DNA of 64,000 bases from a cyanobacterium endosymbiont of Rhopalodia gibberula. Lineage in GTDB: Bacteria; Cyanobacteriota; Cyanobacteriia; Cyanobacteriales; Microcystaceae. This document shows, piece by piece, positions 4,262 through 55,409 of the stretch. The notes below the pieces were generated by a model. The model was not told the origin of the DNA, searched no databases, and worked only from the letters and a program-made list of their open reading frames with translations. The position numbers and the translations under genes are program-made. The stretch is taken from contig NZ_AP018341.1 in the NCBI RefSeq assembly GCF_003574135.1, positions 992,001 through 1,056,000 on the forward strand, given 5' to 3'. Numbering within the stretch: position 1 is the first letter of the stretch; each line of letters begins with the position of its first letter.

Positions 4262-4949
4262 GTCTAAATGCCTTGAACCAAGCAACTTTTTTGATATTAT
4301 CTTTATTCAGTTTACACTGAGATCTTCTTACTCGACTTTAAGCAGCCATTTTTAACTCTCCTAGTCACAATGTTCTCATAGTTTATCTTATGCTTGAAAG
4401 ACGTGTGATAAACAGCATTTGTCTTTAGATGAAGTGAAAATTTGTTACTATATTTTTGATGGTGAAGCATGTAAAATATTCTCTGGCGTTTCTCAATATG
4501 AGGTTTTTGGGAATTCTGTACTCGGAACAGCTATAGTAAACTCTCTCTAAGAGGTTTTCCTTAACGTACAAAGCCTGCCCACAAGCATCTGTTTGCAGTT
4601 TGTTGACTGCAAACAGATACTTGTGGAGGAAAATTTGAAAGATATTTTTAATAGATAAAATCTAAAAACCATAAAAACCTGATAAAGCAGGAGTCCCACA
4701 TGGAAATTACTTTTCGATCAAAGGGAGAATTTCTCGGTATTGAATGTTGCGTGTGTACTCAATAAATATTTTTGTGAGGGATATCCAAGGCAGTTAATTA
4801 ACCACTGCGGTGATGGTAAGCTTATGTATTGGTTAAATGTTAGGCTATCGGCGGTCTGAAATTAACTTAATGGAAAGGACTCCAGAAAATGTAAAGATAA
4901 TGATATAGTCGGTAATAGTCAATGCATATTACAATGTGTACTCGAAATA
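4262..4949. other. Intergenic upstream of crtE
   Basis: No intact gene. It holds the crtE promoter side and the long inverted repeat listed separately at 4579-4626. A weak frame begins MEITFRSKGEFLG near 4700 and stops within 25 codons. Confidence 0.4.
4579..4626. repeat. 21-nt-arm inverted repeat
   Basis: The left arm at 4579-4599 and the right arm at 4606-4626 pair over 20 of 21 positions (one C/A mismatch) around a six-base loop TTGTTG. There is no T-run on either side, so it is not a standard terminator. GC content is higher than in the surrounding DNA. Confidence 0.85.
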
Positions 4950-7688: not shown

Positions 7689-7923
7689 GTTAGTTTTTGA
7701 CCAAAAAGATAGCCCTAATATCTATTGGGAATAGAGATTTCTCGTCTTCAGACATTAAAAATTATTAACTACTTTTTTATCTCATAGATTTTCTAAAATT
7801 TTTTCTATATTTACAGAGTTAAACTAAGAAAAAGAAATTATTTTTTCAAATCTATTATAAGTTTTACTTAGAGATTTGCAATAGGTATGGCTATAGTGAG
7901 TTACCAATAAATCTTGTACTGAA

Positions 7924-8790
7924 TTAAACTATTTTTTCTTTACTATAACGAGATTTAAGATGAATTAATCTATTTTTTAGAATATTAGGATAGGTGATTA
8001 AATAAGTATATTCTTGTAGTAAAAAGTTAACTTTTTCGGGGAAAGTAAGTTGTACTTCAAAACAAGGTGATTTTTTCATTTTATACCAAAGTTTTGAAGG
8101 CAGGTAAACTTCACCAATTTTATAACTTTCTGGTTTAACCTATATAGATTTAGTAAGATCAAAGCTTTTGAATTGTTGTAATAAAAGTGAATCAAAATAT
8201 TTTTGTGAAGGCTGATAATCTATTTTTTTCTATTGTTTTCCTAAAAGTGAACCTCGATAATTTGCTATCTTTTCTAGGTCTAAAACTTGATATCCTTGTT
8301 TAGAAAGCTGATGTAATAAATTGGTTTTGCCAGTTCCTGTTAATCTACAAAGAACATTGTAATTAAACTTTAAGGGTAATACTTCTAACTTTTGTCTTAC
8401 ATGTTGACGATAGGTTTTATAGCCTCCTTCTAATACCTGAACTTGCCAACCAATTTGGCTTGAAATAACGGCTAAACTATTTGATCGTTGACCCCCTCGC
8501 CAACAATAAATTAAAGGAACATAATTTTTATCTTTTTTAAAAAAGCATTTTTTTAAATAATGACTAATATTTTTTTCGATTAGTGAAGCTCATATTTTTC
8601 TAGCTTTAAAAGTTGGAATATGTTATAAACATATTCCAACTTTTACCCTTTCTTGGTTATTAAGAACGGGTAAGTTAATGGCTCCAGGAATATGATCTTC
8701 CATGAACTAATTTTCAGAACGGACATCAATAATTTCACTGCAATTATTTATCTCGTTAATTTGATTAACAAAATGAGGCGCTCTTACCAT
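7924..8790 (-). pseudogene. selU: tRNA 2-selenouridine synthase, decayed
   Basis: SelU/MnmH exchanges sulfur for selenium in the tRNA wobble base 2-thiouridine. Reading the minus strand from ATG 8790 gives MVRAPHFVNQINEINNC, then a rhodanese domain with its active-site loop intact (IYCWRGGQRSNSLAV), the segment VLEGGYKTYRQHV, a P-loop remnant LTGTGKTNLLHQLSK and YRGSLLGKQ. In-frame stops interrupt it after SEN, after VGICL, before ASLIEK, after LLGKQ and in the C-terminal part. The reading frame is otherwise nearly preserved, so inactivation is recent. A perfect 18-bp hairpin at 8607-8645 lies inside the rhodanese domain where family members have no palindrome. Confidence 0.85.
8607..8645. 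repeat. 18-bp perfect hairpin inside dead selU
   Basis: Arms 8607-8624 and 8628-8645 pair perfectly around a 3-nt loop. In the selU frame the right arm encodes the conserved HIPTFK stretch, while the left arm encodes the aberrant VKVGICL followed by a stop. The left arm therefore looks rewritten to match the right one. Confidence 0.85.
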
Positions 8791-9545: not shown

Positions 9546-9595
9546 ATAATAATAACTTGAATAAAAAAATATTTTTTTATTCAAGTTATTATTAT
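9546..9595. repeat. 50-bp perfect palindrome
   Basis: The centre is between 9570 and 9571. All 25 base pairs match with no loop, in AT-rich sequence built around CTTGAATAAAAAAAT. Confidence 0.85.
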
Positions 9596-10267: not shown

Positions 10268-10323
10268 TTATATTTCTTCATCCAATTTAGCTATATATAG
10301 CTAAATTGGATGAAGAAATATAA
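10268..10323. repeat. 56-bp perfect palindrome
   Basis: The centre is between 10295 and 10296. 28 of 28 positions pair with zero spacer. The arm includes the more complex segment CTTCATCCAATTTAGC, so this is not a simple low-complexity coincidence. Confidence 0.9.
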
Positions 10324-20274: not shown

Positions 20275-20316
20275 AAAAAAAACCATAGAGGCATAAGAGA
20301 TTATGCCTCTATGGTT
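20275..20316 (-). terminator. Terminator of the asd-dapA-rnj strand
   Basis: A 16-bp perfect stem (20281-20296 with 20301-20316, loop GAGA) is followed on the minus strand by a run of T (A-run at 20275-20280). It lies 43 bp past the rnj stop. Confidence 0.88.
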
Positions 20317-20358
20317 TAATCTATTAAATTCAAAATTTCTACAATCAATAATAAACGT

Positions 20359-31445: not shown

Positions 31446-31486
31446 TAAATAGTTCACTATTCACGCTGTGAATGGTGAACTATTTA
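31446..31486. repeat. 19-bp inverted repeat
   Basis: Arms 31446-31464 and 31468-31486 pair except for one G-T position; the loop is GCT. There is no T-run and no neighbouring gene to terminate. Confidence 0.8.
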
Positions 31487-35904: not shown

Positions 35905-35940
35905 ACTAGACCATACGCTAATATTGGCGTATGGTCTAGT
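35905..35940 (-). terminator. Hairpin directly after the small membrane protein gene
   Basis: 17-bp arms (35905-35921 and 35924-35940, one G-T pair) containing CTAGACCATACGC. It abuts the minus-strand stop at 35942, and TCATTTTAATT follows on the minus strand, so it is probably a terminator with a weak T-run. Confidence 0.6.
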
Positions 35941-38858: not shown

Positions 38859-38914
38859 ATATTATGATAGTCTTTGTTAGTTGATAATGTTAGCTTTATT
38901 TTAAGCTACAGTGG

Positions 38915-38964
38915 TTCATACACAATCAAAAATTTACATTTGTGAAATTTTGATTGTGTATGAA
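38915..38964. repeat. 17-bp perfect inverted repeat between xth and ctpA
   Basis: Arms 38915-38931 and 38948-38964, loop 16 nt. It lies 176 bp beyond the ctpA stop on the minus strand but has no T-run there, so its role as a terminator is doubtful. Confidence 0.7.
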
Positions 38965-39139
38965 CAGGGGTCTAAGTTCTTTATTATATAAATCAACTAG
39001 CAATTGATAATAATAGAAAAAAAGTAATGAATGGACAGTTTTTATTGATTTAGACTATGTCCACTTCAAAAGTGCAATAATTTGCAAGGAAAAATCATGA
39101 GAAAAAAATATCTCCATAAATGCTCCAACAAACTTTAAT

Positions 39140-44615: not shown

Positions 44616-44647
44616 AAGTTAATTAATATTTTAATATTAATTAACTT
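44616..44647. repeat. 15-bp perfect inverted repeat
   Basis: Arms 44616-44630 and 44633-44647 (AAGTTAATTAATATT and its complement) around TT. Its low sequence complexity makes a chance origin more possible here. Confidence 0.6.
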
Positions 44648-45200: not shown

Positions 45201-45238
45201 TAGCATTATTTTATTTTTGAACAAATAAAATAATGCTA
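45201..45238. repeat. 16-bp perfect inverted repeat upstream of crtP
   Basis: Arms 45201-45216 and 45223-45238 with loop TTGAAC, 334 bp before the crtP start. Confidence 0.75.
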
Positions 45239-53570: not shown

Positions 53571-53716
53571 ATATTTGATTTGAAAACAAATGAATTAATA
53601 ATAATCCTAAATTGACAGTGATCGCTAGTTTTAAACAAAGAAAATTATATCCTAATATCCAACAAGTTCCCAAAACCATCAATTCCCCAAAAGAAAATTG
53701 TTGAGTTAACAATGAT

Positions 53717-53759
53717 AAAGATGCGTCATCCAAAATCGTATTCTGGATGACGCGTCTTT
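53717..53759. repeat. 15-16-bp inverted repeat inside dead cruG
   Basis: Arms 53717-53732 and 53744-53759, one G-T pair. One arm encodes the conserved LKDASS segment; the other is not expected there and coincides with loss of the frame. Confidence 0.75.
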
Positions 53760-53906
53760 GAGAGCAAGAGATCATCTCCATTCAGTTCGGGTTTTCTTAA
53801 TGCCTTCATACATTCGTACTCAAATTAGGTAGCCCCATCGAGAAAACCTACCCTGAAATCCTATTGAGCCGCCCGATGTGCCAAAGTGACATCATCAAAA
53901 AAGAAC

Positions 53907-53948
53907 CAGTTGCTCTAGAACATTCTTCCAATTGTTCTAGAGCAACTG
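53907..53948. repeat. 16-bp perfect inverted repeat inside dead cruG
   Basis: CAGTTGCTCTAGAACA (53907-53922) and its complement (53933-53948), loop 10 nt. Both arms lie in the reading VALEQLEECSRATGSF of the dead glycosyltransferase. Confidence 0.8.
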
Positions 53949-54586
53949 CCGAGATAAAAAACACTGACTGTTGGACATCACTAATTTTGGGGATTATTTT
54001 CGAACTCCGGCTGAATCAAACTGATACAACAGGGTCATTAATAATATTGTTTTAACAACCATTCTTTCATATATTTAAGGATAAATTGAGGAAACCAAGA
54101 AACTAATATCGTATCTTTCTTTCTCCATCGCAAGGATAAAACTAGCTACTTAAACCCTGTTGGGGTTGAATACCAGCATCAATGCTTAATACCTATTGAC
54201 TTTTAGGAGAACTATTCAAAAATTCTGTATGCAATGCTCAAGGGCGGACAACCTATTGAAAAGACAAGAGATTACCTGTTTAACCCTATCTCGAATGCCG
54301 TCTGAAGAATAAATATCGATTACCAAAAACCCCCGAATTTCGTAACTTTGCTGACTTAATCTTTGCAAACATGAATCAATGCGATGGACTTTGTTGAGAG
54401 TGGAAAGAGTCACGCCAATAGTCTCTAACTATTCAGGGGTGAAAAATTTAAGTTTGAGAGAAAGAAGACCAATCGTCCCCTTAATTAGACTAGATAGGAG
54501 AATAGAGGTGGTAATTTCCTAAAAAATTAGGATTTATAAAGAAATCACCCTTAAAACATTATTTTTAAGCAATATAAACAAACTAA

Positions 54587-55409
54587 TTACTTAGACAGAA
54601 CTTTAACAGGATTTACTGATGAGATACTAACCCTGTTTTCGAAGAAATTAGCTGAGCCGTTGATAACTACTATGCAATAAAGGGAAACAAAAAGAATTAA
54701 ACCAAAGATAATAAAGGGATAAATATCCGTCCCCAAACTAATGAAAGTAGAATGACTCATATGAATTGCTAAGGGTAGATTCAGTCCAGTTTTAAGTAAA
54801 GTTGGGTGGTTAACTGTTTGTATGAAATTTGCCACAGTCATAAAGGTTGCTCCTGTCCCAAACCCAAAAAAGCATAATGGTTTAATTCATGGTAGGCTCT
54901 GATATAAAATTCCAAGAAGTTACATAGAATCGCCACTAGTACAATAGCACTTAAGGTTTGTATTTAGACTGGACAAGAAAAACTCTTTAATCTTACAACG
55001 GCAATAAGGTGACACTAAATCCAATATAAAACCAGGATAAAGGAATTGCAAATGAAACTAAACCTGCAATTTTATAAGCCCAATCAGTTTAAATAGCTAT
55101 AAGAACCTAAAGTAAATCCTGTACTAGCCCCAAGCAATTCACTACTTAAAGAGATAGTTAAAGCTAGTAACATAGATCCGAAACAGTACCATCTTCCTAG
55201 ATAACGGTAGTTATTTTTAATATAAGCATAAACGACTCCTTCCCAAGCCATTGAACAATTAAAAGAGGTTTGACCGATAGTCGGTAAGCTGGCAATGAAG
55301 TCAAAATGGGATCAAATCAGTAAAAGTTAGGCTAGCCCAAATGTCATTGAGAGGACATGACCTATCATTAGAGACTGTTCCACGCGAATTAGAGTGTTTA
55401 TTGATATTT
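54587..55409 (-). pseudogene. cruF: Carotenoid 1',2'-hydratase CruF, decayed
   Basis: CruF hydrates gamma-carotene-type carotenoids on the way to myxol glycosides. The minus strand reads RVEQSLMIGHVLSMTFGLA then a stop, HFDFIASLPTIGQTSFN, MAWEGVVYAYIKNNYRYLGR, RWYCFGSMLLALTISLSSEL, LLGASTGFTLGSYSYLN then a stop and frameshift, and AILVAILCNFLEFYIRA-like later pieces with HELNHYAFLG, ending in an 84-codon open piece at 54587-54841 (MTVANFIQTVNHPTLL). The SSELLGASTGFTLGSYSYL block is diagnostic. Several stops and at least two frameshifts kill it. Confidence 0.8.

Follow-up and report, generated by a model that had tools for sequence, protein, structure and literature searches.

In Escherichia coli, mutation by template switching at quasipalindromes has been described at a hotspot in thyA and with lacZ reporters, and a strand bias has been reported (PMC7202029). 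In Saccharomyces cerevisiae, template switching homogenises the arms of inverted repeats in 39 protein-coding genes across strains (PMC8604942). Among the 200 genomes richest in inverted repeats 28 are endosymbionts, more than their share (PMC10434271, whose reference list includes van Noort and others 2003, a study of quasipalindrome correction). The strings 'template' and 'shuffl' are absent from the text of PMC10434271. The terms 'palindrom' and 'hairpin' are absent from the spheroid-body genome papers PMC5638926 and PMC12903740. Among the matches listed for the open-licence literature, covered by titles and the beginnings of abstracts, there was no report of hairpin copying in spheroid-body genomes. 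Van Noort and others reportedly proposed in 2003 that strand misalignment causes the excess of perfect inverted repeats. The excess they described is said to be a general one across genomes, unlike the lineage-specific surge, polarised with relatives, that is described here. Decay of symbiont genomes is usually told as a story of point mutations, small deletions and mobile elements. In the diatom endosymbionts studied here, near-perfect hairpins appear to form by repeated overwriting of sequence with the reverse complement of its neighbour, mostly in non-coding DNA, and such hairpins are rare in the relatives examined.

The window is the whole stretch of 64 kb that was analysed (G000:C1:992001-1056000), and it belongs to a genome of 3.02 Mb in one contig (G000). 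Relatives of the same genus are the Epithemia clementina endosymbiont EcSB (G001), the Epithemia turgida endosymbiont EtSB (G003), uoEpiScrs1 (G004) and Unicellular cyanobacterium SU2 (G002). Genome size is 2.5-3.1 Mb in G000, EcSB, EtSB and uoEpiScrs1 and 4.6-5.2 Mb in SU2, G005 and G006. Hairpins were counted in 400-kb samples of the four reduced genomes and of the larger genomes of SU2 and G006. With a GC content of 33-34%, the symbiont samples are AT-rich, and DNA outside long ORFs makes up 37-46% of them. Hairpins were scored with +1 for a match and −3 for a mismatch and with a loop of at most 30 nt; those scoring at least 14 are called strong. Mirror repeats were found by the same search, complement-direct and direct repeats by a similar one requiring an exact run of 10. 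Shuffles preserved dinucleotides, and 40 of them were made for the window. Positions of hairpins are given without strand.

Two gene remains on the minus strand of the window, cruG (approximate limits 53588..54600; the name is provisional and comes from the first-pass annotation) and selU (7918..8739; family TIGR03167, six internal stops), were said to contain three near-perfect hairpins, and all three are present. The first cruG hairpin (53717..53759) has 20-nt arms (53717-53736 and 53740-53759) that are 90% complementary around a 3-nt loop; its score is 12 and it is counted only in the window's set of hairpins scoring at least 12. By alignment columns 18/20 positions pair in the window and 9/20 in both EcSB and SU2. 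The right arm retains the KDASSR codons, while the left arm has been overwritten: it stands in place of a GDLAL segment with a net loss of 1 nt, and it is the reverse complement of the right arm at all but 2 of 20 places. Judging from the alignment, one of these two mismatches seems to have arisen afterwards in the donor arm. The second cruG hairpin (53907..53948, arms 53907-53922 and 53933-53948) has 16-nt arms of 100% complementarity and a 10-nt loop, and pairs at 16/16 columns as compared to 9/16 in EcSB and 7/16 in SU2. Its right arm has a net loss of 1 nt, codon 4 in the frame of the orthologue is a stop, and both arms have diverged from the relatives. The same divergence of both arms is seen in the selU hairpin (8607..8645, arms 8607-8624 and 8628-8645), with 18-nt arms, 100% complementary, and a 3-nt loop. 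Here pairing is 18/18 in the window versus 9/18 in EcSB, EtSB and SU2 and 8/18 in uoEpiScrs1. Its length is unchanged and an in-frame TAA has been created, the peptide VGTIYKQISPFEA of EtSB having become VGICL*HIPTFKA. Identity to the relatives falls within each of the three hairpins, in selU to 0.67 as compared to 0.88 in the flanks (EcSB and EtSB).

As had been supposed, these palindromes are new and not ancestral, since aligned orthologues pair at 7-9 of the 16-20 positions and the window at 16-18. They also coincide with frame damage, both cruG hairpins being 1 nt short and the selU hairpin carrying the TAA. The expectation of one conserved and one replaced arm fits the first cruG hairpin, where the aberrant arm was to be the exact complement of the conserved one and is so at 18/20 places only; it does not fit the other two hairpins, in which both arms have changed. 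Arm copying was further held to explain both the palindromes and the inactivation of the genes. The first part is supported and the second is not; both genes bear other lesions. The cruG counterpart in SU2 is an intact ORF of 401 aa (L014:3718-4923, minus strand), and there is no match at the corresponding place in EtSB and uoEpiScrs1. In EcSB the gene is in pieces without either hairpin, and indels beyond those at the hairpins, including a gap of 37 columns, are present in the window copy, so that killing of cruG by the hairpins is unsupported. The selU frame is stop-free in EcSB, SU2, EtSB and uoEpiScrs1; killing by the hairpin is unsupported here too, because the window copy has a TAG codon ahead of it.

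Strong hairpins are far more numerous in the window than in its shuffles: 11 score at least 14 (shuffle mean 0.07, maximum 1) and 17 score at least 12 (mean 1.15, maximum 5). Per 400 kb there are 58 strong hairpins in G000, 71 in EcSB, 80 in EtSB and 86 in uoEpiScrs1, as compared to 1 in SU2 and 5 in G006. One shuffle of each 400-kb sample contained 0-2, and six shuffles each gave 0 or 1 for G000 and 0 for SU2. Lowering the score to 12 yields 2 hairpins in SU2, inside the range of its shuffles (0-4). The predicted surplus over composition-matched shuffles is therefore borne out in G000 and its three sister symbionts and is not seen in SU2 or G006. Mirror repeats number 0 in G000, 3 in EcSB, 1 in EtSB, 0 in uoEpiScrs1, 3 in SU2 and 2 in G006 per 400 kb; complement-direct repeats number 0, 0, 0, 1, 1 and 0 in the same order, and direct repeats 4-25. 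Since mirror repeats stay at 0-3 and complement-direct repeats at 0-1, the surplus is confined to inverted repeats and, of the genomes covered over 400 kb, to the four reduced ones. Loops are short: 256 of the 295 symbiont hairpins have a loop of at most 10 nt although up to 30 nt were allowed, and the median is 3.5-5 nt depending on the genome. In stretches L150-L154 of a relative with a 1.44-Mb genome (G013) we found 9 strong hairpins in 100 kb, two of them with 31-nt arms and one of these two perfect. G005, G008, G011, G014, G015, G016, G025 and G028 jointly have 6 hairpins in 300 kb, 4 being in G014. A loopless repeated palindrome family, GTAGGGG...CCCCTAC, occurs in L156 and L158 of G014 and in L161 of G008.

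Other hairpins of the window include one of the same class at 4579..4626 (score 17), two perfect palindromes without a loop at 9546..9595 (25-nt arms) and 10268..10323 (28-nt arms), and hairpins at 44616..44647 (score 15) and 45201..45238 (score 16). Those at 31446..31486 (score 15) and 38914..38965 (score 18, 16-nt loop) are lineage-specific. Two hairpins are mostly paired also in EcSB and EtSB. One of them (20280..20317; 15/17 and 16/17, respectively) is located 42 nt past the end of a minus-strand ORF and is possibly a terminator. The other (35905..35940; 15/18 and 17/18) lies 2 nt from a minus-strand ORF end. It is kept in both G000 and EtSB (G003:C1:1043179) despite two stem pairs that differ on both sides, and is either a conserved terminator or a site of ongoing arm-to-arm copying.

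The ancestry of a hairpin was evaluated if it had at least two reliable homologues, i.e. with identity of at least 72% over at least 200 columns; matches at about 60% identity were excluded as unreliable. This left 106 of the 295 symbiont hairpins, the other 189 having fewer than two such homologues. Among the evaluable ones, 73 are lineage-specific (14 in G000, 9 in EcSB, 34 in EtSB and 16 in uoEpiScrs1), and their homologues are paired at a median of 57%. The other 33 are shared (8, 13, 6 and 6) and thus represent fewer distinct places. After MAFFT realignment, 701 of the 1459 stem pairs of the 73 lack an unambiguous ancestor and 493 are unchanged; changes are restricted to the left side in 112 pairs and to the right side in 114, and affect both sides in 39. 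There is no left/right bias when changed pairs are counted by arm. A single event per hairpin is unlikely because both arms have changed in equal measure; several events, or another agent of copying, may lie behind the pattern. Arms changed at 433/2047 informative positions (21.2%) and flanks at 679/5664 (12.0%) in the MAFFT alignments; polarisation on BLAST alignments gives a smaller contrast (251/1902 versus 858/9842).

Selecting hairpins forces changes that raise pairing, but does not force a shared direction between neighbours. In the 73 hairpins adjacent one-sided changes agree in direction in 119 of 166 cases, and in 86 of 128 (67%) if only substitutions are considered. Shuffling within hairpins gives means of 104.1 and 74.1, and the observed value was reached in 1 of 2000 shuffles each time. 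Count-matched pseudo-hairpins from the same alignments give means of 59% and 52%, with the observed value reached in 0 and 1 of 1000. Neighbouring changes thus share direction, a pattern expected of copying in tracts and not of independent mutations or of selection on single pairs. A search blind to pairing gave a weak signal: it identified 6 of 676 derived mutation clusters as reverse-complement copies (mirror 1, complement 2, direct 4). In stems with 5-9 flanking pairs, single mismatches are corrected about as often as expected (observed/expected 0.84-1.31), and stems with at least 10 flanking pairs offer just 7 changes to score. Together with the equal change of both arms, these two results speak against a simple version of the process. 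In the samples about one new strong hairpin appeared per 340 to 1,400 derived substitutions.

A clear case (G003:C1:969475-969538) lies within an ORF that is conserved across the four symbionts: EtSB has 9 in-frame bases, absent from G000, EcSB and uoEpiScrs1, that match the reverse complement of the other arm in the form found in the relatives. We take the product of this ORF to resemble a uroporphyrinogen methyltransferase/synthase fusion. Other clear cases, with runs of changes in one arm, are G003:C1:999852, G003:C1:1009434 and G004:C1:1462745. A hairpin with 34-nt arms in EcSB (G001:C1:1199542-1199614) lacks 42 alignment columns found in G000 and EtSB, as if one switch had replaced a longer stretch. 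Another (G003:C1:1223691-1223727) lies inside an ORF, presumably the C-terminal half of a split-intein DnaE, and is mostly paired also in G000 and EcSB.

Regarding the location of hairpins, DNA was divided into ORFs of at least 100 codons, non-ORF DNA with protein homology, and the rest. Densities per 100 kb in these three classes are 0.9, 16.8 and 32.0 in G000, 0.5, 7.5 and 41.8 in EcSB, 3.6, 4.2 and 45.3 in EtSB, and 3.6, 14.9 and 53.7 in uoEpiScrs1; the corresponding values are 0, 0 and 1.4 in SU2 and 0.3, 0 and 6.3 in G006. In G000, 53 of the 58 hairpins fall in the third class, the DNA that is neither ORF nor homologous at the protein level to the sampled ORFs. Non-ORF DNA with homology amounts to 6.7-24 kb per symbiont and holds 3, 1, 1 and 1 hairpins, the recognisable dead coding sequence of G000 having its 3 in 17.9 kb. 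This class is small because the protein set was drawn only from the same samples, and many hairpins of the remaining DNA may lie in older remains of genes. The comparison of pseudogenes with intact genes that the first-pass annotation proposed thus bears out an excess for non-ORF DNA as compared to ORFs, with few hairpins in recognisable pseudogenes. Surplus outside ORFs would follow from a higher rate of formation or from better survival alike, and non-coding DNA of SU2 and G006 may be more constrained. Sixteen hairpins are located inside ORFs that have homologues (1 in G000, 0 in EcSB, 7 in EtSB and 8 in uoEpiScrs1).

Our results indicate that the hairpins are probably scars left when sequence was copied from arm to arm within imperfect inverted repeats, through template switching during replication. 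Arm-to-arm copying is supported by the directed tracts, and replication template switching, also called quasipalindrome correction, is its most likely form. A polymerase would stall at a weak inverted repeat, synthesise part of one arm as a reverse-complement copy of the other and then return to its own template, which would leave a burst of substitutions and small indels and a more perfect stem. Such a stem would fold more readily and allow further tracts to be copied in either direction; bursts would thus begin at chance inverted repeats and become likelier as the stem improves. In live genes selection would remove most of these changes, and in DNA outside long ORFs they would persist. The proposal that a polymerase is the agent draws on established work (Ripley 1982; Dutra and Lovett 2006; both cited in PMC7202029). 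As first suggested for this locus, copying from arm to arm is still the best reading, although not as one clean event per hairpin. The tracts might also come from repair: the imperfect repeat would be extruded to form a cruciform or hairpin, whose mismatched stem would then be corrected in patches, either way, by mismatch repair. This would account just as well for the equal directions (112 versus 114), and all four symbionts have intact frames for MutS and MutL. However, the 9-nt templated insertion at G003:C1:969475 and the 42 columns missing at G001:C1:1199542 are harder to fit, and isolated stem mismatches are not corrected in excess, all of which makes repair copying unlikely.

It is very unlikely that the hairpins are kept by selection in genomes that have lost other signals, be it as transcription terminators, as RNA structures or as protein sites. 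The shared hairpins do lie near gene ends, 13 of 33 being no more than 100 nt past the end of a conserved ORF (11% expected), and these may be terminators; for the lineage-specific ones the figure is 12 of 73 (16% versus 9.6%). The whole set of 295, however, is near the level of random non-ORF places both for a T-tract after the hairpin (31, 10.5% versus 8.2%) and for closeness to an ORF end (32, 10.8% versus 10.3%), and on these grounds we rejected intrinsic terminators as a general explanation. Moreover, most evaluable hairpins (73/106) are lineage-specific and the 16 mentioned above lie within ORFs. Insertion of mobile palindromes (REP-like or MITE elements) is next to negligible as an explanation. 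Such families do occur in relatives, the GTAGGGG palindrome making up 3 of the 4 hairpins of the G014 stretches, but they should leave many similar copies at non-homologous sites. There are no large sequence families in the symbionts: only 1-4 similar pairs exist among the 58-86 hairpins of a genome, a second copy of most of an arm is present elsewhere in the sample for just 4-10 hairpins per genome, and in aligned cases the arms derive from local sequence. Chance in AT-rich DNA, or errors of sequencing and assembly, could be suspected at 33-34% GC and with assemblies, not reads, as the evidence. This is highly improbable, since shuffles preserving dinucleotides yield 0-2 hairpins per 400 kb, mirror repeats are not elevated, the excess recurs in four genomes of which three are separate records, and 33 hairpins are shared between genomes (at fewer distinct places).

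The frames of SbcC, SbcD, MutS, MutL, RecJ, RecG and PolA are intact in G000, EcSB, EtSB and uoEpiScrs1, and loss of the hairpin nuclease SbcCD, or of any of the other five, was rejected as the cause. ExoI and ExoVII restrain mutations of the quasipalindrome type in E. coli. The gene for the large subunit of ExoVII, xseA, has no match in the four symbionts and G013, and a match is present in SU2. There is no match either in G005, G006, G008 and G011, which have few hairpins in their samples (none in 20 kb of G005, 5 in 400 kb of G006, 1 in 60 kb of G008 and none in 40 kb of G011), so that loss of xseA is not sufficient. RecQ-family matches over the cut-off number 1 in each of the four symbionts, 3 in SU2, 3 in G006, 2 in G008 and 0 in G013; this is a correlation only. 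Both xseA and RecQ are leads rather than causes. We suggest tentatively, and with more doubt than belief, that diatom endosymbiosis made hairpin-templated copying a leading source of complex mutations, feeding the loss of frames and sometimes inserting amino acids in live genes, with a lack of ExoVII or additional RecQ helicases, helpers in the clearing of displaced or folded DNA ends, perhaps contributing. G013 may have reached this state independently.

On the main reading, dozens of scars per 400 kb in four sister genomes go back to a distinct, recognisable process of copying, and the relatives with larger genomes serve as a control. Rates of template switching, tract lengths, directions and dependence on repair genes become measurable in nature. 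There is also a warning in this: paired changes in a stem need not signal selection for RNA structure.

How do these hairpins compare with the known systems? As in quasipalindrome mutation of E. coli, an imperfect inverted repeat is perfected by templated copying; that system was described at a hotspot gene and with reporters, whereas in the symbionts there are dozens of cases per 400 kb, in both directions, mostly outside ORFs and within one lineage (PMC7202029). S. cerevisiae shares the lineage-specific multinucleotide changes in arms, some of which alter proteins of live genes, but has an ordinary genome with no decaying DNA (PMC8604942). Template switching also creates and maintains RNA hairpins, where it accounts for the gain of stems and for paired changes across them; those are RNA genes kept for their structure, while the symbiont hairpins as a whole have no sign of such selection (PMC8794818). 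The survey of PMC10434271 counted far weaker repeats (27-113 per kb) and, in the portion available, did not polarise them with relatives. In Nematomorpha, too, a single lineage has an unusually high number of perfect inverted repeats, but these lie in coding genes of mitochondria and reach 284 bp, unlike the symbiont hairpins (PMC6649704). The copying process itself is already known, and it is its scale in the diatom endosymbionts that is unusual.
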